A stretch of 29,947 bases of DNA. Source: a virus. Positions 6,339 through 28,822 of this stretch are shown in pieces. The stretch is from positions 1-29,947 of IMG/VR virus record IMGVR_UViG_3300047550_004474, one strand, 5' to 3'. The position numbers were made by a program, and so were the translations under genes. The notes under the pieces were generated by a model, which ran no database searches, was not told the origin of the DNA, and saw nothing but the letters and a program-made list of their open reading frames with translations. Position 1 is the first letter of the stretch, and each line of letters opens with the position of its first letter.

Positions 6339-8168
6339 GTGGAGGACCTAATTACCGATAACACCCGGAACGACGGGGCACTGGTGAATGTGCTCACGGG
6401 AATGGGGGTAGCAGGGAAAGATAAGACAGTCACTACGAGCGTTACCGCCAAGTATCTATTAAGTGAAGCTGAGCTAGAAATTTTGTATAACGCCGGGATA
6501 CCGCGGCGGTACGTAGATAGCATAGCCGATGAAATTTTAAGGCATCGAGTCACCGTGACTCTAGGTGCGGCAGCGGCTGCGGATGCTGATACTGTCCCTA
6601 AATTTGATAAGTACCTCAGAGACACACAGTTTCATCAGGCGCTAGCTGAAGTCGTGAAATTACAGCGGTTGTACGGCGGAGCCGGAATGGTCCTGCTGAT
6701 AGACGACGGGCAAGAAGCTAGTGACCCCGTAGATATAAATCGTATAAAAGCAGTACGTGGCTATATACCACTATCACGACACGAACTGATACCTGAAGAT
6801 TTCACAGTCACCGATTACTCAAAACCTACCTCTTACAGAATCACCACAAGTCAACGTATAGAAAACACACAGCGTTCAAGCTACGTCAACTTTCCTATAC
6901 ACGCTTCTCGCGTGGCCAGATTTGACGGATTGTATTTACCCTGGAATCAAAGAGTCCGTAACACAGGGTGGGGCATGAGTGTACTCCAACTCTTATGGGA
7001 CGCCTTTAAACGCTATGAGTCGGCGCTGGCCGGTTTAGAGGGTATGGTTCAAGACTCTGACGTATTCGTCCACAAAATCCCAGGCCTCTTTCAAAGGCTT
7101 GCTGCGGGTAACGAAGCTGATTTGCGCAAGCGCCTAGAAGCTAACAGTCTTAGTCGTAGTGTCTATGGCGGTATTGTCGTAGACACTGAAGAAGATGTTA
7201 ATTTCCTCAGTCGTGCGTTGTCTAATATCGCAACTGCCACAGACCCTTTTGTAAGAGATTTACAAGCGGCCACAGGATGGCCTAGCACGATCTTGATGGG
7301 AGAGTCTCCAGGCGGACTCGGAAAAGAAGGCCGCTACGAGGAGCGGGTGTGGGCGGCTCTTGTAGAGCAATGGCAAGACGTCTATTGTCGCACTCCCGTA
7401 ACAGAAATTTTTACCTACATATTGGCGTCAAGAGAAGGACCCACCCGAGGACGACCTCTAGAGTCCTGGTCCGTTCATTTCCCTAATATCTTTACTCAAA
7501 CCGATGCCGAAAAGGCCACGATCCGTGGTCAGATAGCACAAGTAGACTCGCAATACATAAATCTTGGAGTTTTGAACCCAGTAGAGGTGAGACAAGCGCG
7601 CTTTGGTAACACAGAGTACTCTATCGAGACTCCGCTAAACGAAGTCGTAACAGAGCAGCTTGCTGCGCAAGCCGACGCTCAGTTCCAAGCTCAGATGCAA
7701 GGGCTTAAGGCACAAGCTGAGGCTGCACAAAATCTCCCAGCGGAAGGCGCTGAGCCGGAGGAGGAAGAAGGTCCTGAGCCGGAGGAGGGAATTATCCCCG
7801 AGTCCGGTACGAAACGCGATAGCTTTGACTTTTACAGCGCGCACGGTCTTCGTATCCGAGTAACACACACCGAAGGCCAAATTAAAGCCGGATATCTTGT
7901 AGGACCGGACGGACAGCGCACAGACAGTAGCACGAACGCTCCGTTAATGGTGTTCGGACCTAATCGGACACGGGCTTACAAGCTCTACCGCGCGCAGTTC
8001 TATCGGGGAGATGAGCTCATTCCGGGCCCGTACGTCGCGGGCTTCGCTTCCATGCGCACCGCCCGCGCGGGGGTCGCCGCACTGTTTTCACGGCAGAATG
8101 TGGCAGGGCTTTCCCCTGTTCCTGCGGGTGAAATCGAGGCCCTTCGTGCCGGTTGGGAGACCTACTAA
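6339..8168 (+). CDS. Portal protein (DUF1073-like) with C-terminal extension
   Basis: Predicted 609 residues from a GTG start. The portal forms the dodecameric ring at the head vertex through which DNA passes. YGGAGMVLLIDDG (~112-124), WGMSVLQLLWDAFKRYESAL (~215-235) and GWPSTILMGESPGGLGKEG...ERVWAALVEQWQ are typical of DUF1073-type portals. After a Gln/Ala-rich helix and a Glu-Pro-rich linker (~475-490), an extra domain from about residue 490 to the end begins KRDSFDFYSAHG, and I do not recognise it. Codon use is AT-ending and ATA-rich (DINRIKAVRGYIP is read with ATA throughout). No Shine-Dalgarno precedes the start. The stop overlaps the next ATG (TAATG). Confidence 0.88.
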   Translation: MEDLITDNTRNDGALVNVLTGMGVAGKDKTVTTSVTAKYLLSEAELEILYNAGIPRRYVDSIADEILRHRVTVTLGAAAAADADTVPKFDKYLRDTQFHQALAEVVKLQRLYGGAGMVLLIDDGQEASDPVDINRIKAVRGYIPLSRHELIPEDFTVTDYSKPTSYRITTSQRIENTQRSSYVNFPIHASRVARFDGLYLPWNQRVRNTGWGMSVLQLLWDAFKRYESALAGLEGMVQDSDVFVHKIPGLFQRLAAGNEADLRKRLEANSLSRSVYGGIVVDTEEDVNFLSRALSNIATATDPFVRDLQAATGWPSTILMGESPGGLGKEGRYEERVWAALVEQWQDVYCRTPVTEIFTYILASREGPTRGRPLESWSVHFPNIFTQTDAEKATIRGQIAQVDSQYINLGVLNPVEVRQARFGNTEYSIETPLNEVVTEQLAAQADAQFQAQMQGLKAQAEAAQNLPAEGAEPEEEEGPEPEEGIIPESGTKRDSFDFYSAHGLRIRVTHTEGQIKAGYLVGPDGQRTDSSTNAPLMVFGPNRTRAYKLYRAQFYRGDELIPGPYVAGFASMRTARAGVAALFSRQNVAGLSPVPAGEIEALRAGWETY

Positions 8169-11100
8169 TGAACAACCTGACGCCCGAAGGGTCCCGTGCT
8201 GCGACCTACCTGGCCACCCGAGAGCGTATCGATGCGCGTAAAACCACGCGCAATATCCAGTGTACGCCTCCAAATGTGCGCTGTGGTAATCGGTGCATCC
8301 CCCCTACATGGGATTGCCGCCTTAAGGGGCAAGGTACTGACCCTCATCTCCGTGCAGTTAAAACTGACCCCTTAGGAGGCCTTGCTAACATCCAGCGAGG
8401 GTTCGGGCGTATCAGTAAAGGGATCATAAAGGGTAATTTTTCAGAGGTTGAAGGAGGTAAGCGAGCCATCATTAGAGGCTCAGTTAAGATCACCCCTGGG
8501 AACATTCAGCAGAAGAAAGACCTACAGAAAAAGCTTGAAAATAAGACCCGAGCTATAAGTATAGGTCTCGCCGTCGTTACCGGAGGGCTAGGCATTCACG
8601 CGTTGTTTATGAAGAGCAACACGTTTGGCTATCGTGATGGGGTGGGGGCGAACATCAATAACGCGGTGCGTCTAGGTGTTAATAAAGTTCTAGATTCTAT
8701 GCCAGTAATCGGTGCTAACCGAGAGCGAGTGCGCGCACGAGTGGTCGGGGGTGTACAAGCAGAACTTAATAGACAGCAAAATCCAGTTTCAGCACAACTA
8801 ACGAACCAATTATCACGAACTCGTCCGACAGCGGCGGATGAAGATAGCCGGTCTAATCTGGTAAAAAACCTCGCGGCCGTAAATCGCGAGTTTAGCGGGG
8901 CGACCTCCGACTTTTACGCTTGGGACCGCGCACACCAGCGCGCGTTTTGGTCTACATCCAAAGTTGAGGTAGGTGTAGGGCTCGAACGTGGACAGCGGAG
9001 TAGTATATTCGCCCGCCCCGCCACAGACGAATTTCTAGCGCGTCAATTCCAGCTCCAAGGCGATGATACGCTCACCCCCCAAGCGATTAAAGATGGTATT
9101 ACGCGGAAGCTAACCGAGTACAAAAGTGATTTACTCGATCTAGCTCAGCAGCAGGGGTTCAAAGTTGAGACGGTAAGCGGCGGAGGGCGCACTCTAGTCC
9201 AGCGAGATCGCCGGACGTTCATTCAAGGCGTAGTAAGCTCTACTCTCCCCAAAGGGCAAGCTAACAATCGTGTACGTGCGGCGTTAACCACACACTTAGA
9301 ACAAACGCTGAGCCAATCGCCAAGGACATTAACTAACACCATATACAGGGATACTTATACTGGGTTTAACAACTTTTACATGAGCAAAGCCTCTACGATC
9401 GAAAGTGCGACAGAAGAGGCGTTTTTAAGCCGCCAAATGCGAGAAACGGGTGCGGGGCAGACCTTGCTCGATGCTCGTCAGGCCCGGGCGGCGTTCGTAG
9501 CTGGGCGCGACGTCGCAGGCCCGGCGCACGCCGAACTCGTACTGCGCCAGTATCACGCCCAAACCGTGCGCGGAACCCCCCGCACCTTGTTCAGTGTCAC
9601 TGATCGCCTGGCTACAGCCGCCGCGGCCGAGATCGAGGGGCGCGCTGTGCGACCGAGCGAAGCATTCGGTGTGCTCGAGCGCGCCGGCATATCCGGTGCA
9701 ACACCGAGCCGCGCTCCCGCGCGTGCGCGTAGCCCGCGACGTTCCCCCGAGGGCGAGGCCGTCTACAACTTGATGCGTGAAAACCCAGGTATGACGTTGC
9801 AGGCTGCTCGGCGCGAGGTGAAGCGCCGCCGTGGAGACGAATCCGACGTACCCCTCGAAGTCACCCGCACTGCGACCTACCTCGCGGCTCGCAGAGACTT
9901 CAAGGAGGGTTCAGGCCGGGGAAAGCCTTGTGGCGCCTCGCACATCCCGCAGGCGCATGAATGTCGTAAGGGCGGGGGAGCATTTACTAGCGGGGCTGAT
10001 CAGAAACGTAAACTCGCGACCATCGCTGCAGTAGCGGGGGGTGCAGTCGCTCTTGCTGTCGCCGGTACGGTCGCTTACAACCTAAAGACGCTAAGTGACC
10101 CAACAAAGTCACCCCTATCTGCGAGCCCCAGCGTTAAAGATCTTGTCAAAACCATGAAACAAGAAGCTGGCACCAAAAGCGCCAGTGAAGCCATGGGGTA
10201 TTACTACACGAAGAAATCAGGATTGAAGCCAGGGGATGTTGTCTACTACCGTAATGAAAAAGACTCCGCCGCTCACTTTGGTATCTACCTGGGGGAAGGG
10301 AAAGACGGCAAGGTCCGCGCCGTTATCGCCAACACAAATAGTTCGCGCTTCAGCTGGGCCGATGTCGCCGAGATCGGAGCGACTAAGCCAGGTATCAAGA
10401 CCTCTCAAGCTTTGATGACTCCTCTGGTCAAGGCCCCTGATCCAAAGTTCAAAGCTAAGACAGGCACTCCCTTTACCAATGAAGAAGTCGTCAAGCGCGC
10501 CATTCGTATTGTCGGTACGGACTACAAGTTCTCTCTAACCCGCGACAACTGCGAAGCACTGGCCAATGGCATTGCGTATGGCGTGCCCGAATCCGAGCAA
10601 CTTCAACGATTCCGCCGTGCGACCCGCGCAGTCGTCGACGTCGGCGTGGGACGTAGACAGCGTCGCGAAGCCCGCGAAGCCATCTACACCGGTCGCACCC
10701 GAGGCCGTAGTTACACCGCATCCGAGTTCGTTACCTTCCTCGAAGGTCAACGTGAGTTCAGCTCGTCCGCTGGGAAAGAACTAGCCAAGCAGTACTCGCA
10801 GTATTTCGAGGGCGCTCGTCTCGACGCGCAGAACACCGGCGGGAGTTTGATCAGCCCCGACGAGCTTTGGTCGCGCATTAAGCCCTATGGCCCGGCGCTG
10901 CGCGCCCAGGCAATGGCGGACTATTTATTGATATTGGCTACCATCGGCGCAAAATCCAATCAACAAAAACTACGAAGCGACGCAAAAGGCAAAGCCTGTG
11001 GTGAGAGCTTTATACCTAAGACTCACGAGTGCAAGAAACAAGCTGCTAAGACTGTGGCAAAAGTTGCTCTTGCGGCTGGGGCTATCGCCGGTAGTGCCTA

Positions 11101-12007
11101 CGCTCTAAAGCGCGCCAAGATCGGGGAGTTCCATACCGGTGTTATGACCGGAAATGTGGGGGGCTTGCGAAAGCGGCGCATGAGCTACATGGAGAAGAAC
11201 CAGCTGGCGGTTAACAGCACCCAGCTCGCCGCAACCTTCAACGGTCTCAAAGGGCAAAAAGGCGTCACCCCGAAGAACGTCGATGCTCTACAGAGCTTCA
11301 TCAAAAAGAACAATATCGTCAACGACCCCTCTAAGTTCTACAAAGACCTCGAAGACAGCATGAATGACCAGGTTAAGGTTATGACCCCCACTCAAGTGAA
11401 GCAGCAGCTTACTCAAGTGAAGATGCTGAATAATCTCGGAGGATTTGACGGCCTAGCTTCGCAATACAGCAATAACATCTATGTGCGCAGCATACGCAAA
11501 AATAGCACCAAGCTTGATGCAGATCCCTCGCTAGTGACCGGCGCGGTGAAAGACTTTATGACCATGCGCTCTATCAATCAAGATATTAGTCCTGCAGATA
11601 AAGTCCGCTTCAAAAAACTATTTACCATATCGGGTGGTACCAAAGACGGAGATACCGCCGAATACATCAATACAATTCACGAGATCTCCCATTTGGTCCA
11701 CTTCAAAGCAAGCAAAAACAAAGGGTCTTCGGCCGACAGCATAGGCATGGGCAATGTTTACAATCCTAAGAATAGTCGAGAGTTTTTCATTAAAAACAAA
11801 CTTGACTACAAACAAGGCTTGGTCGAGCTGGATAAACAGCTAATGGCTGCGTCATCTGGCTACGGGCGGTCAGACATCAATGGGCGTCAGGCCGAAACCT
11901 TCGCCGAGCTTTCAGTCCTGTACGTTGCGCAAGGTGAAACATTTAAACGTCAGTACCCGCTTGCCTATGCTTGGGTGGATGACATCTGGAGGACAGCCAA
12001 TGGCTAA
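8168..12007 (+). CDS. Giant head-region multidomain protein: Cys boxes, LRAT/NlpC-like domain, HExxH peptidase-like domain
   Basis: Predicted 1279 residues between portal and MuF; no single family is recognised. It reads as three units, each opening with ATYLA- or ADYLL-like sequence and a Cys box. Unit 1: C32/C39/C43/C50, hydrophobic 130-148, then a helical region. Unit 2: C588/C599, membrane-like 615-636, then an LRAT/NlpC-P60-like domain with AHFGIYLGEG (H703) and DNCEALANGIAYG (C795), the His-Cys pair used by thiol acyltransferases and peptidases. Unit 3: C944/C955, hydrophobic 961-980, then a C-terminal domain with HEISH (1171-1175) and AETFAE (E1243/E1247), the layout of a gluzincin-type zinc peptidase. 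The location suggests a head-internal or ejected protein. Enzyme activities are inferred from motifs only. Confidence 0.8.
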   Translation: MNNLTPEGSRAATYLATRERIDARKTTRNIQCTPPNVRCGNRCIPPTWDCRLKGQGTDPHLRAVKTDPLGGLANIQRGFGRISKGIIKGNFSEVEGGKRAIIRGSVKITPGNIQQKKDLQKKLENKTRAISIGLAVVTGGLGIHALFMKSNTFGYRDGVGANINNAVRLGVNKVLDSMPVIGANRERVRARVVGGVQAELNRQQNPVSAQLTNQLSRTRPTAADEDSRSNLVKNLAAVNREFSGATSDFYAWDRAHQRAFWSTSKVEVGVGLERGQRSSIFARPATDEFLARQFQLQGDDTLTPQAIKDGITRKLTEYKSDLLDLAQQQGFKVETVSGGGRTLVQRDRRTFIQGVVSSTLPKGQANNRVRAALTTHLEQTLSQSPRTLTNTIYRDTYTGFNNFYMSKASTIESATEEAFLSRQMRETGAGQTLLDARQARAAFVAGRDVAGPAHAELVLRQYHAQTVRGTPRTLFSVTDRLATAAAAEIEGRAVRPSEAFGVLERAGISGATPSRAPARARSPRRSPEGEAVYNLMRENPGMTLQAARREVKRRRGDESDVPLEVTRTATYLAARRDFKEGSGRGKPCGASHIPQAHECRKGGGAFTSGADQKRKLATIAAVAGGAVALAVAGTVAYNLKTLSDPTKSPLSASPSVKDLVKTMKQEAGTKSASEAMGYYYTKKSGLKPGDVVYYRNEKDSAAHFGIYLGEGKDGKVRAVIANTNSSRFSWADVAEIGATKPGIKTSQALMTPLVKAPDPKFKAKTGTPFTNEEVVKRAIRIVGTDYKFSLTRDNCEALANGIAYGVPESEQLQRFRRATRAVVDVGVGRRQRREAREAIYTGRTRGRSYTASEFVTFLEGQREFSSSAGKELAKQYSQYFEGARLDAQNTGGSLISPDELWSRIKPYGPALRAQAMADYLLILATIGAKSNQQKLRSDAKGKACGESFIPKTHECKKQAAKTVAKVALAAGAIAGSAYALKRAKIGEFHTGVMTGNVGGLRKRRMSYMEKNQLAVNSTQLAATFNGLKGQKGVTPKNVDALQSFIKKNNIVNDPSKFYKDLEDSMNDQVKVMTPTQVKQQLTQVKMLNNLGGFDGLASQYSNNIYVRSIRKNSTKLDADPSLVTGAVKDFMTMRSINQDISPADKVRFKKLFTISGGTKDGDTAEYINTIHEISHLVHFKASKNKGSSADSIGMGNVYNPKNSREFFIKNKLDYKQGLVELDKQLMAASSGYGRSDINGRQAETFAELSVLYVAQGETFKRQYPLAYAWVDDIWRTANG

Positions 12008-23926: not shown

Positions 23927-26900
23927 GTGGAAAATTTTCAGGTCACGGTCAAGGCCGACACGCAGCGCGCTGAGCAGGATCTGCAGCGGCTCGACAAAAC
24001 AGCAGATAAGGCGACTAAAGATAGAAAACTCAAAATCGAGTTACCCTCTCTAGGGGACGTTACCCGCTCGTTTACGCACCTCGATAGAGATATAAGAGCT
24101 GCAGCTAATAATATCCAATCTTTCTACAAGGTAGCTAAACAGCTACCTGGCGTTGGGGACGAGATAAAACGGTACGAATCCGCGGTTGTTGGTACAGCAA
24201 AAACAAGTAATACATTGTTGCGCAATAATGAAGTAGGGGAAATACTAACTAATAGTTTTAAAAATGCATCTACGATGGTCGGTGGTTTAGTTAATAATTT
24301 AGCTAAATTAGGTTTTGCACTATTCGGAATAAAAGAGATAGTCGGTGTACTACAAGCGGCTTTTGGCGGACTCTTCGAGCAGACCATAGGTAGAGAAATT
24401 AAGCTGCGCCAGACTATATTAAAAACGCAGACAACACTAGCCTCAACCAGTAAAGTATTTAAAAATGGCAGAGAGATTACAGATCCATTTGAAAAAATTG
24501 TAAGTTTAACTGGTGCAGTTCGTAAAAACATTGATTCTATCCGCGAACGCTCCATCGCACTTGCTGGTGTAACATCCAATGATGTGATAGAAGTTTTTGG
24601 TATTGTAGCCGCGCAGATTAGCCAAGTAGGCGGTGGGCTAAAAGAGGCAGAAGACTTAGCTATAAATTTTGCCGCTGCGCTAGGCACATTCGGTATCCCT
24701 CTGTACCAGGCGCGACAAGAAATAGGTTCTATTCTGCGTGGCGATATTACAATGGATTCTTATTTGGCTAAATCATTAGGTATCACAAATCAAGACATAG
24801 CTAAAGCTAAAAGTAAAGCAGGAGGAGTTGTTAAATTCCTAGAAGATCGGTTAGCAGCGTCGGTCGCAGGACAAAAAATAGCAGCTCAAGGGTTTTCCGG
24901 TGTCGTATCAAACATACAAGATTTAGGTGAGCTCATCGGACAGCGGTTCGGTGCGCAACTGCTGGATCCTCTGCTGCACGGACTAGCTAATGTATTCGAG
25001 ACTTTGTTCAAAATACGAGAACAGCTTTTTTCTATTGCAGATATAGCTGGAGGAGCTATAGCTCGTTCTACGGCTATATTCACTGAAATAGGTGTACGTT
25101 CAGGAGTAAGCGGAGGTGCGGCGGGCGGAGGAACTAAAGCACTCAATGACGTTAAAGACGCGGTACAAGATGTTGTTGTTTTGGCCGAGAGCGCCGCTCA
25201 GCGGGCTATTGGTGCTATTGCACAAGCTATTACTGTGCTTAAACCCTCTGTCTTAACTATAGCCGATGCTTTTATTCGGTTAGGCAGAGTATTTGTAGAG
25301 ATAAAAATAGATACTTTCGAGGCATTAGCACGCGCGCTAGCTAATGTGATATGGGCAGCGCAACCTGTACTAGCTGTATTTACTACACTATTTAATCTCT
25401 ACAGCAGATTCCTTGATTTGCCAATACTTAAAGAATTTGCAAAACTAGCGGCTACGATGACGCTGCTCAAACGCACTGGTTTAGATTTTGTAACTAACTT
25501 AGTCATAATCTCTAATACTATATTTCGTGTGGTCATACCCGCTTTAGGGTCGGTGGGCTCAGTAATTGGAGTTCTGCTCACGGGTGTAGCCGCACTCGCT
25601 TTAGCCATAGGTAGATTGACAATGGCTATAGGGGGCTTAACAGCCGCGCTTGCGGGGCTTCCTACAATAGGAGCTAGCGTAGCTAAAGCCCTATTAGACG
25701 TATCTAAAAATTTAAACAATTCAGGTCAGCAGAGTGTTCAAGCAAGTAATAACATAAACACAGTAGCCGGGGGCTTCAAGAATTTAGGTGAGACCGCGCG
25801 GATGGCAGGCCTAAACTTGGTCAAATCCGTAGGCTGGATGCTCCTTATACAGCTTACTGTAACTGCATTAGTCAATGCGTTTGGAGAGTTCCAGAAAGCT
25901 AACGAAAATATAGCTAAACAAAATCGAGCCAATATCGCGCTAGATAGGCTAAGCTCAGTTTACAAAAATGTGGGAGAAGAAGCAGATTACGCCACTAAAG
26001 CCGCTCGAGACTTTGAGAAACAGCTAGCTACAGCAGAGTATGGTCGTGCGACAGAGCGCATAGAAGAAATAAGAAAAAAACTAAACGACCTTCAATACGA
26101 AGCTAAAGACGGTATACAAACTTGGGATGAGTTTTTACGCATGCTCGACACTGAGTCAGTGTGGGGGGACGCACAGAGGCGAGAGGCAGGAAAACTTTTA
26201 GAAGAGCAGTTCCGCTTGCGCCAGTACCAAATCAAATACGAAGCATCACAGAAGAAAGAAAATGCGGAAGAGCAACTGCGTATCGAATCAGACAAACGGA
26301 TCAATTTAGAAAAGGAAATTAAAGATATCAAACTGCAGCAGGAAAATGACTTATTCGCTAAACGCCAAGAGATCGCGCAAAAAGAAGTTGATATATTCCG
26401 TACAGCCGGAGAGCTGCGCATTTTCCAATTAGAGCAAGCTAATAAAAAACTGATTGAAGGAGAGCAAGGGGCATCTCGCATCGCGCTCGAAGCCTTAAAC
26501 GATTATTTAGCCACCCGAGAGCGAGGGGAATTAGACATAGAAGTTGGCAAAAAAGAATTAGCCATTAGTGTCGCAAATATGGAGAAAGAAATCGAAAACT
26601 ACAAACTCGAAAACGCTAAAACTATCGCTAAAATCAGGAAAGAGGCGGCTCAATATGAAGAAAATGTTGCCAAAAACATTGAAACTATAAAGCGCAATGG
26701 CGCTGAAGCACAAGTAGCCGGTGGTACAGAAATAAAAGAAGGTTTCCGCGTGGGATCTACAGGGCGCTCTACAGGCCCGCATTTGCACATCAGTAGCCCT
26801 ACTGGTGATGCGAGAGCAGTGCTCAACGAAGCTTATACCATAATTGAGGCATGGCAGAAACTAGGAGTGCAGACAATTGAGCTGAGCAACATAAACATGA

Positions 26901-28822
26901 ATGTTACGAGATTAGCGGGAGCACAGCTTAGAGATGCCCTTCGTCGAGAGCAACAAGCGCACGGTACTCGGTCAAGAGGAGGTGCTATCGATATCGCTGT
27001 ACCGTCTGGGACACTTGTACCTCGTCGTACGGGTACACCTTATTGGGGCGGAGGGGCGGCTGAAGGTGGAGGAGGGTGGACGGCTGTTTCGCTAGAGACA
27101 GGTAATGTGTTTATGCACGGCCTCGATAAATCTACGGCGAGCCGAGGAGCCACACCCGCCCCAATAGCAACAAAAGCGCCTAATTTCGATGAAATCGGTA
27201 CGCCTGCTGTAGAACGTTACGCCGCGGCTATTCGCGGATTAACTGGAGCGATGGAGCGCTTACGTGCACTTCAACAGGCCCTGACAGAAGCTAAAACTGC
27301 AGCAGCGTTTGACGCTATAACAACAGCCGCGTTTAAACCGATAGAATTGGAGCAGTACACGGATCAAATGTATGAGCTGATAGCGACTCAAAACTTACTA
27401 ACTAAGGGGCTGTACAACGCTGCCGATCCCGAACGCTCAGCTATAGCCGCTCAATACGTAGCAAAAGAGTTGACAGCACAGCGTGAGTTGAGCGAGATTA
27501 TTGAAGGTATAAATAAGCAAGACAAGCTCTCTAAAGAGGAAAAAACTAAAGCAATAGAAAAAGCTCGAGTAGATCAAGCAAAATATGTAAGAAGTTTACA
27601 GGATGAAGCACGCGTACGTGTGACTTTAAATGGGTTGACTAGATCGACAGAACTGCTAAAACAGCTAGAAAACGACACACTAGCGATGGAAAAACAGAGT
27701 GCTCAAATAAAGTTGCGTAATAGGCTGTTGTTGGAAGGTGTAGATGCGAGCATTGTAGACCGCGAAGTTAAAAAGCTAGAATTGCAACAGCAACTAGACG
27801 AAGTTAGTAAAACACTAAACGACTCATTAGCTAATGAAATAAGTCTACGCGATAAAATAGCGCAACAGGTCAAAATCGCTACCCCAGCAGAAATAAAAAC
27901 ATTATATAAACAGCTGGAAGAACGTGATGCTGTAATAGCTCAGTTAAAGGAACAACTAAAAGCAGTAGCTGACAAAACAACGCGCGCTCAAAAAGCTATA
28001 GACACCCAGCCCCAAGAAGAAAGCGCAGATCAGAGTGTAAAAGGTCTGTTTAATAGGTGGGAAAAAGAATTTAAATCGTTACGTGAAGAAACCGCCAGTC
28101 TTGTAGAAGGAGCCCAATCTACACTGGCTGATAACATATACAGAGAGTTAAGTGGAGAAGGTGTGCAGGTGCGTAGAGATGCTATTCAGAGCCAGCTTAG
28201 CCAGCTGCAGCAATTACAACAGCAGACTGTACGCGGTAGTCAAGCTTGGCAAGAATATGGTGCGCAGATAGATAAACTAGGCGACGCGCTTAATCGAGTA
28301 GGTTCTATAGGTGAACGAGTTAAAGGTATACTTACAACGCTTTTTCAGTCGGTCGCTCAATCTTTTATGAAGATGGCCGCCGATATGATCGCTAAATGGT
28401 TGCTGATGAAAGCTATAGGGCTTATTACAGGTTTCTTAGGTCCTATTTTTGGAGGAAGCAAGAGCTCCGCATCTATAGTGAAAGGCATTGATATTCCAAT
28501 CGATCAAATGCCTGCAGGTATGAAATTCGCTAAAGGTGGAGTATTTACGAACTCAATTGTAACCTCTCCTACACTTTTTAATCAGATGGGAGAAGCTGGT
28601 CCAGAAGCTATTATGCCCTTAACCAAGGGTCCTGGCGGGCGCTTGGGTGTCTCTGCTCACGGACTCGGAGGCGGTATCACCGTCAACGTCTCCGTCGACG
28701 CCACCGGATCTAGAGTGCAGGGTGACGACGCGCAGAGCGCCGAGCTCGGTAGGCTCATCGGAGCTGCCGTACATCAAGAAATGCTGAAACAGAAACGACC
28801 CGGAGGACTCTTTGCTTCCTGA
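23927..28822 (+). CDS. Tape measure protein with embedded permuted M23-like domain
   Basis: Predicted 1631 residues from GTG 23927; its length sets tail length. The start NFQVTVKADTQRAEQDLQRLDK is typical of tape measures. Hydrophobic membrane-like segments lie near 540-585 (VGSVIGVLLTGVAALALAIG) and near 1490-1515 (IAKWLLMKAIGLITGFLGPIFGG). Long coiled coils occupy 650-930 and 1150-1420. Residues ~936-1085 have GSTGRSTGPHLHI (H952, H954) and then GGAIDIAVPSGTLV (D1022). These are M23 peptidase signatures in reversed order, with the first zinc-binding His not evident. The end has the usual NQMGEAGPEAIMPL. Codons are AT-ending and ATA-rich. Confidence 0.93.
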   Translation: MENFQVTVKADTQRAEQDLQRLDKTADKATKDRKLKIELPSLGDVTRSFTHLDRDIRAAANNIQSFYKVAKQLPGVGDEIKRYESAVVGTAKTSNTLLRNNEVGEILTNSFKNASTMVGGLVNNLAKLGFALFGIKEIVGVLQAAFGGLFEQTIGREIKLRQTILKTQTTLASTSKVFKNGREITDPFEKIVSLTGAVRKNIDSIRERSIALAGVTSNDVIEVFGIVAAQISQVGGGLKEAEDLAINFAAALGTFGIPLYQARQEIGSILRGDITMDSYLAKSLGITNQDIAKAKSKAGGVVKFLEDRLAASVAGQKIAAQGFSGVVSNIQDLGELIGQRFGAQLLDPLLHGLANVFETLFKIREQLFSIADIAGGAIARSTAIFTEIGVRSGVSGGAAGGGTKALNDVKDAVQDVVVLAESAAQRAIGAIAQAITVLKPSVLTIADAFIRLGRVFVEIKIDTFEALARALANVIWAAQPVLAVFTTLFNLYSRFLDLPILKEFAKLAATMTLLKRTGLDFVTNLVIISNTIFRVVIPALGSVGSVIGVLLTGVAALALAIGRLTMAIGGLTAALAGLPTIGASVAKALLDVSKNLNNSGQQSVQASNNINTVAGGFKNLGETARMAGLNLVKSVGWMLLIQLTVTALVNAFGEFQKANENIAKQNRANIALDRLSSVYKNVGEEADYATKAARDFEKQLATAEYGRATERIEEIRKKLNDLQYEAKDGIQTWDEFLRMLDTESVWGDAQRREAGKLLEEQFRLRQYQIKYEASQKKENAEEQLRIESDKRINLEKEIKDIKLQQENDLFAKRQEIAQKEVDIFRTAGELRIFQLEQANKKLIEGEQGASRIALEALNDYLATRERGELDIEVGKKELAISVANMEKEIENYKLENAKTIAKIRKEAAQYEENVAKNIETIKRNGAEAQVAGGTEIKEGFRVGSTGRSTGPHLHISSPTGDARAVLNEAYTIIEAWQKLGVQTIELSNINMNVTRLAGAQLRDALRREQQAHGTRSRGGAIDIAVPSGTLVPRRTGTPYWGGGAAEGGGGWTAVSLETGNVFMHGLDKSTASRGATPAPIATKAPNFDEIGTPAVERYAAAIRGLTGAMERLRALQQALTEAKTAAAFDAITTAAFKPIELEQYTDQMYELIATQNLLTKGLYNAADPERSAIAAQYVAKELTAQRELSEIIEGINKQDKLSKEEKTKAIEKARVDQAKYVRSLQDEARVRVTLNGLTRSTELLKQLENDTLAMEKQSAQIKLRNRLLLEGVDASIVDREVKKLELQQQLDEVSKTLNDSLANEISLRDKIAQQVKIATPAEIKTLYKQLEERDAVIAQLKEQLKAVADKTTRAQKAIDTQPQEESADQSVKGLFNRWEKEFKSLREETASLVEGAQSTLADNIYRELSGEGVQVRRDAIQSQLSQLQQLQQQTVRGSQAWQEYGAQIDKLGDALNRVGSIGERVKGILTTLFQSVAQSFMKMAADMIAKWLLMKAIGLITGFLGPIFGGSKSSASIVKGIDIPIDQMPAGMKFAKGGVFTNSIVTSPTLFNQMGEAGPEAIMPLTKGPGGRLGVSAHGLGGGITVNVSVDATGSRVQGDDAQSAELGRLIGAAVHQEMLKQKRPGGLFAS

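Follow-up and report, generated by a model that had tools for sequence, protein, structure and literature searches.

A putative circularly permuted, M23-like peptidase domain in a tape measure protein and in virion proteins of Synechococcus phages

The tape measure protein encoded in the viral DNA analysed here (the window, a stretch of 29,947 bases) contains, at about residues 930-1075, a domain in which the motifs of M23 (LytM/lysostaphin-type) peptidases stand in circularly permuted order. The same order recurs in relatives from other viruses, and the region is modelled with confidence as a single domain. Based on sequence comparison and structure models, we consider it fairly probable that this domain is an M23-derived zinc peptidoglycan peptidase that underwent circular permutation and would be delivered with the virion.

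The window is a linear fragment and also carries genes for a terminase, a portal protein, a head protease, a major head protein and a minor tail protein. Residues 111-370 of the tape measure protein share 39-48% identity with tape measure proteins from phages of Planktothrix, Aphanizomenon and Nodularia, suggesting that the host of this virus is likely to be a cyanobacterium. The features of the protein are listed in Table 1.

Table 1. Positions in the window of the tape measure gene and of the parts of its permuted domain.
Feature	Position	Strand	Evidence
Tape measure protein ORF, 1631 aa, carrier of the domain	23927..28822	+	phrog_1716 (4.5e-26), phrog_24 (4.1e-25)
Permuted M23-like domain, approximately residues 930-1075	26714..27151	+	alignment A2; AlphaFold2 mean pLDDT 84.2, pTM 0.80
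M23 motif III, now first: GSTGRSTGPHLHIS, residues 943-956, His952 and His954	26753..26794	+	PF01551 positions 53-86 of 96; hhalign
Linker without M23 counterpart, residues 962-1013: helix, short strand, helix	26810..26965	+	AlphaFold2 secondary structure
His1012, candidate displaced first zinc ligand	26960..26962	+	A2, 31/31 rows
M23 motif I, now second: GAIDIAVPSGTLV, residues 1019-1031	26981..27019	+	hhalign; phmmer to LytM
Asp1022 in motif I (residues 1019-1031), candidate zinc ligand	within 26981..27019	+	
Beta hairpin and FMHGLD, residues 1048-1067, putative equivalent of the YxHL-type strand, His1064	27068..27127	+	AlphaFold2 strands; A2
C-terminal tape measure region downstream of the permuted domain, residues 1105-1630	27239..28816	+	phrog_1716 match 1105-1630

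The domain shares with canonical M23 peptidases (LytM, lysostaphin; PF01551) the motifs GxTGxSTGPHxH and GxD..xPxGTxV and a hairpin ending in His. In canonical rows HxGxD comes first, followed by the YxHL-type strand and then GxTGxSTGPHxH (order I-II-III), whereas in the window the last of these has become the first (III-I-II). GPHLH occupies residues 950-954 (26774-26788), with its histidines at 952 and 954, and GAIDIAVPSGT residues 1019-1029 (from 26981); the placement of these motifs in the preliminary description was thus accurate apart from small shifts. A third M23-like motif, FMHGLD, is found at residues 1062-1067 (27110-27127). The swapped order that had been proposed was borne out, since both halves align to M23 in permuted fashion and the order is kept in 52 loci. 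Rather than lying N-terminal to the HxH part, the part corresponding to HxxxD follows it in the window and in these loci. The domain further differs from canonical M23 in its added helix-strand-helix linker, of which residues 963-1007 align to canonical M23 with a probability of only 0.09 in profile-profile comparison. A second M23 copy was also sought, and the sole PF01551 match in the record, itself a linear fragment, was the GPHLH half of this domain.

The first zinc-binding His had been thought to be absent. The HxxxD spacing is indeed lacking, the position four residues ahead of the Asp (D-4) being Gly1018, but a His is conserved at D-10 instead (His1012, in 31/31 aligned rows). Judging from this conservation, the "missing" His is probably His1012, displaced upstream, and "absent" was probably the wrong word.

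A scan of IMG/VR yielded 52 loci with the same permuted order, including the seeds L026 (the contig of L003) and L034 (the ACG-2014i genome). After dereplication, in which 22 of the 52 were left out as near-identical, 30 loci remained, and these together with the window form alignment A2. The loci comprise window-like tape measures (L005-L029), L049 and L056, which are tape measures that bear a TMP_3 domain, L030, a protein of 2077 aa that matched no tape measure family, and a group of sequences around Synechococcus phage ACG-2014i. Loci were recruited by the patterns DI[AF]VP[SAK]GT or TGN..[HG][GH], and the conservation of Asp1022 and of the last motif is therefore partly built in by construction; His952, residue 954 and His1012 lie outside both patterns. 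The window domain alone and the whole tape measure alone, when used as scan queries, retrieved 0 loci and 1 locus, respectively. No cellular copy was found in a scan of genome contigs with one pattern, where 189 pattern matches led to 2 confirmed cases, both canonical M23. Between the window domain and three relatives pN was 0.21-0.31 and pS 0.74-0.86, with silent sites near saturation. Among five other codon pairs pN was lower than pS in four, and in the fifth (L022/L023) it was higher, with very few changes. Weak Pfam matches other than M23 among the A2 rows were set aside.

The piece from the window scores 16.1 bits against PF01551 (15.9 in other scans), below the curated cut-off of 28.7, and the match covers only the GPHLH half of the domain; at E<=10, 4 of the 31 A2 rows match. 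Using phmmer, residues 5-35 of the window domain aligned to LytM 83-116 and residues 81-136 to LytM 12-71, a crossed order that is the signature of permutation. A profile of alignment A1 aligned both halves in permuted order to 5kqb, and the A2 profile did so to 5kqb, 3slu and 6muk, each half being weak alone in both cases. In the A1 alignment to 5kqb the second half extends through the hairpin to LHLDK of 5kqb, with an offset of roughly one residue at the His. A canonical M23 alignment was then compared with A2 by hhalign; it consists of 37 rows, 35 of them distinct (39 had matched, and 2 were dropped as short). Motif III aligned with a score of 49.1 and a probability of 94.4 (query 16-35 to template 91-110), and motif I with a score of 28.7 and a probability of 35.2 (query 97-120 to template 27-51). 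In two sets of 100 column-shuffled M23 controls the highest scores were 20.1 and 25.0, both below the score of motif I.

When the clades were taken separately, the 15 L005-type tape measure rows that include the window scored 56.6 and 26.4 against M23, and 54.5 and 26.2 after removal of the window. The 15 cyanomyovirus-type rows (including L049 and L056) aligned on their own through motif I only, at 23.3, with no alignment of motif III. Likeness of both halves to M23 is hence seen in the whole family and in the tape measure rows, and not in the cyanomyovirus rows alone. Because of its motif order, its lack of HxxxD and its score below the Pfam cut-off, the permuted domain is not called a member of M23 here, though it probably works like one.

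A second set of proteins with the permuted order carries it at the C-terminal end of virion proteins of about 1000 aa, from phages such as P60. The end of P60 gp33 reads GSTGPHLDV ... AHRNRGSFGVDFATPDG ... RTVIELPDGRRYAFVHG, and proteins of S-CBP1 and DSL-LC07 match gp33. From 164 confirmed IMG/VR relatives 80 were kept, and the 24 remaining after dereplication, with 3 isolates, make 27 distinct rows, some of them close. Five key positions are constant in all 27 rows, which have HLD, although one of the two search patterns demands HLDV and its D is thus partly built in; a His at D-9 is likewise found in 27/27. Compared with canonical M23, this podovirus set aligned in permuted order with scores of 26.5 and 24.1 (probabilities 23.8 and 12.5), against a maximum of 18.1 in 100 shuffles. 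Between the podovirus set and the family of the window no alignment rose above noise (hhalign 18.1 and 17.1). The shared break point, the displaced His and the HxD motif point towards a possible single permutation for both sets. In the protein of phage S-T4, HFH is followed by a His at D-9 and then by GGYGREAMIL...VSHG; a podovirus alignment to which this protein had been added was misaligned and was not used. The phmmer matches of the DSL-LC07 domain to polyubiquitin were also set aside, as they are sums over repeats.

The preliminary description had called for structure prediction of the region, and AlphaFold2 run on A2 returned a single compact alpha/beta domain (model 1; pLDDT 84.2, pTM 0.80). 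The model begins with a strand at 952-956, followed by helices at 962-979 and 998-1013, the latter ending with His1012. A strand at 1021-1024 then holds Asp1022, and two further strands lie at 1051-1055 and 1061-1065, with His1064 in the second of these. The four main strands may be set beside the four-stranded antiparallel core expected of LAS enzymes, and the candidate ligand residues are conserved in A2; LAS core strands have been described in the context of the M23-type enzyme EnpA (PMC8269130). Most core blocks have a pLDDT above 90, the loop after His1012 has 75, and one block has 69. Model 2, of the HxH-bearing member L044, has a similar topology (pLDDT 84.6, pTM 0.80).

A Foldseek search of the PDB with model 1 gave no match at E<=0.001. 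Neither an M23 nor an M15 chain appears among the listed Foldseek and VIA-align matches. This absence says little, as both methods are sequential and may miss a permutation, but the fold searches lend no support to M23 either. The best VIA-align Z-scores, 4.1 for model 1 and 6.3 for model 2 (ribosomal S10/NusE), were read as reflecting a common two-layer arrangement. Searching BFVD with model 1 brought up a protein called "putative muramidase" from Synechococcus phage S-T4 (E 5.5e-7; TM-score, normalised by query length, 0.71), as well as a weak match to an internal virion protein of P60 (E 0.011, probability 0.82); model 2 retrieved proteins from S-CAM1, S-T4 and S-WAM2 (E between 4.5e-6 and 1.7e-4). 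As a side observation, residues 868-894 of PDB 9m7n_A (Gp16, 915 aa), near its C-terminus, matched the GPHLH half at E 0.14.

By analogy, a mechanism can be proposed for the tape measure protein of the window. The last strand of M23 (GSTGxSTGPHxH) would have become the first strand of the domain, the helix-strand-helix linker would connect the former C-terminus with the former N-terminus, and the new termini would lie after the YxHL-type strand. Zinc might be bound by His1012, Asp1022 and residue 954, the last being His in the window and Asp in the other L005-type tape measures. His952 could take the role of the M23 HxH histidine and His1064 that of the YxHL histidine, both as catalytic helpers. 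This assignment follows the zinc site of EnpA, formed by His29, Asp33 and His111 (PMC8269130). The domain would then cut peptidoglycan peptides as the tape measure leaves the tail and enters the periplasm, thereby easing DNA entry.

Alternatively, the permuted M23-derived fold might have lost catalysis and now bind peptidoglycan or serve a structural role, like degenerate LytM-domain proteins. Such a loss would be in keeping with the broken HxxxD spacing and with the state of position 954, which is His in 16 of the 31 A2 rows (HxH, as in GPHLH) and Asp in 15 (HxD), the latter being 14 of the 15 L005-type rows plus L030. We regard it as unlikely, because His952, His1012 and Asp1022 each occur in 31/31 rows, as does the His of the last motif (in register in 16 rows, shifted by about one residue in 15), and because position 954 is occupied only by His or Asp, both capable of binding zinc. 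Together with the D-9 His in 27/27 podovirus rows, the constancy of His1012 and the restriction of position 954 speak for a peptidase over an inactive binder. The preliminary description had left these two options side by side; the permutation it assumed is supported, and the inactive binder is disfavoured by these conserved residues. Mean identity to the window among 8 full-length tape measures likewise argues against a loss of function, at 82% and 74% in the motif stretches versus 46% in the linker, but conservation is just as high (78-84%) over tape measure residues 151-375. The window alone among L005-type rows has His954; its HLH (26774-26788), compared with HLD in the 14 others, may be ancestral or a change back.

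Descent from M15 or another LAS family was weighed using an M15 alignment of 18 ORFs with the M15 motif, taken from 29 loci. M15 peptidases belong to the LAS group. On such a descent the domain would have the ordinary order (His1012, Asp1022, His1064) with an extra N-terminal strand, or it would be a permuted M15 with the HxD strand first. The whole family aligned to M15 in ordinary order over 59 columns with a score of 25.8 (probability 16.6), while the best of 100 M15 shuffles reached 14.2. Taken by themselves, the cyanomyovirus rows scored 24.8 with M15 and 23.3 with M23. The helix-strand-helix ahead of the His...Asp pair, and the HxD motif in its HLD form, also resemble M15 (PF08291 and relatives). 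We nevertheless hold M15 or other LAS descent to be improbable, because the whole family matches M23 at motif III with 49.1, against 17.8 for M15, and matches M23 at motif I as well. Moreover, the M15 pattern SxHxxGxAxD is absent from the window domain, where His and Asp lie 10 residues apart, and by eye S-T4 and P60 keep an M23-like GGYG or LPDGR hairpin ending in His. Taken as a whole, the family thus resembles M23 more than M15, which does not hold for the cyanomyovirus rows alone. The case for an M23 origin therefore depends on the tape measure rows together with the podovirus set, and the cyanomyovirus rows by themselves do not tell M23 and M15 apart.

That short M23-like motifs arose by chance in a long tail protein, as the weak single-sequence E-values (0.012-0.015) might suggest, is very improbable given that 20,000 shuffles of the tape measure protein yielded GPH[LIVM]H not once, the motif I pattern a single time and both together never, that the order is shared by 52 loci and the podovirus set, and that two models confidently show a single domain.

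The permuted domain follows a glycan-cutting domain in several proteins of cyanomyoviruses and cyanopodoviruses, and the two together would cleave glycan as well as peptide. Among 15 scanned proteins, which were hand-picked and are partly related (7 of the 15 were also scanned against PHROGs), 8 have a glycan-cutting or endolysin-type domain upstream. Scores above the curated cut-off were obtained for the Glucosaminidase of DSL-LC07 and of S-CBP1 and for the Phage_lysozyme of L045, while Phage_lysozyme2 in P60 and Hydrolase_2 in ACG-2014i, L048 and L041 are all below it; phrog_90 (endolysin), upstream in S-T4, came from the PHROG scan. No glycan-cutting or endolysin-type partner was detected in the window, L013, L030, L049, L056, L052 or S-CAM1 by Pfam (or by PHROGs, where the protein was among those also scanned with it).

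All isolates matched by domain queries are Synechococcus phages, namely ACG-2014i, S-CAM1, S-T4, P60, S-CBP1 and DSL-LC07; two of the isolate domain queries gave no match. Tentatively, an M23-type (LAS) zinc peptidase might have been permuted once, long ago, and have founded a superfamily, seen so far among isolates in cyanophages, that spread over tape measures, myovirus baseplate-region proteins and podovirus internal virion proteins and became fused to several glycan-cutting domains. It would be marked by a displaced first zinc His and by His or Asp as third ligand. A hypothetical protein of S-CAM1 (L236:849-3959) adjoins the baseplate gene gp26 and contains the permuted domain with HAH, RHNHSGPKPYAVD and IFHL; Pfam detected no glycan-cutting domain in it.

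A close known parallel is EnpA, a tape measure of an Enterococcus faecalis prophage with a lytic transglycosylase and an M23 domain, described as an active peptidoglycan hydrolase (PMC8269130). As in the window, an M23-type domain is borne on a tape measure, and for EnpA cleavage has been demonstrated. However, EnpA has HXXXD and HXH in ordinary order in a domain towards the C-terminus, after the transglycosylase (PMC8269130), whereas the window domain is located mid-protein and no glycan-cutting domain was detected in the same protein. In mycobacteriophage TM4, motif 3 of the tape measure hydrolyses peptidoglycan and eases the infection of stationary cells (PMC1796659), a further parallel to the activity proposed for the window domain.

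Among protein families, phrog_34252 ("endolysin") matches 14/31 A2 rows, phrog_11440 (unknown) matches 15/31, and phrog_24152 (unknown) matches the DSL-LC07 protein along its whole length; the descriptions of all three are silent on a permuted peptidase. Because the permuted form lies below the Pfam cut-off in the scanned proteins, the domain goes unnamed. No description of a permuted M23 was found in the open-access literature among the matches listed (titles, abstracts and passages), nor among those listed for cyanophage M23 tape measures. Much is known about M23 peptidases as cell-wall enzymes, and a permuted form with a displaced zinc ligand, if true, would test how far an M23/LAS active site can be rebuilt. 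The domain is also a candidate for the enzyme with which Synechococcus phages of various tail types enter through the cell wall, and in the virion proteins of these viruses it may help to breach the wall of the host as infection begins.

Permutation is known from another family of peptidoglycan peptidases. LRAT-type enzymes are permuted relatives of NlpC/P60, and passages of a review mention permutation only for two NlpC/P60 groups (PMC6403190); they are, however, cysteine enzymes, and no relation to M23 is implied. Directly after the portal gene, the window encodes a 1284-aa protein (8153-12007, + strand) with an LRAT domain at residues 691-811 that scores 37.3 bits, above the Pfam cut-off, and a weak NlpC/P60 match is also present. 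Given the permuted relationship noted in that review, the virus may carry two permuted peptidase-type domains, one in its tape measure and one in the LRAT protein.
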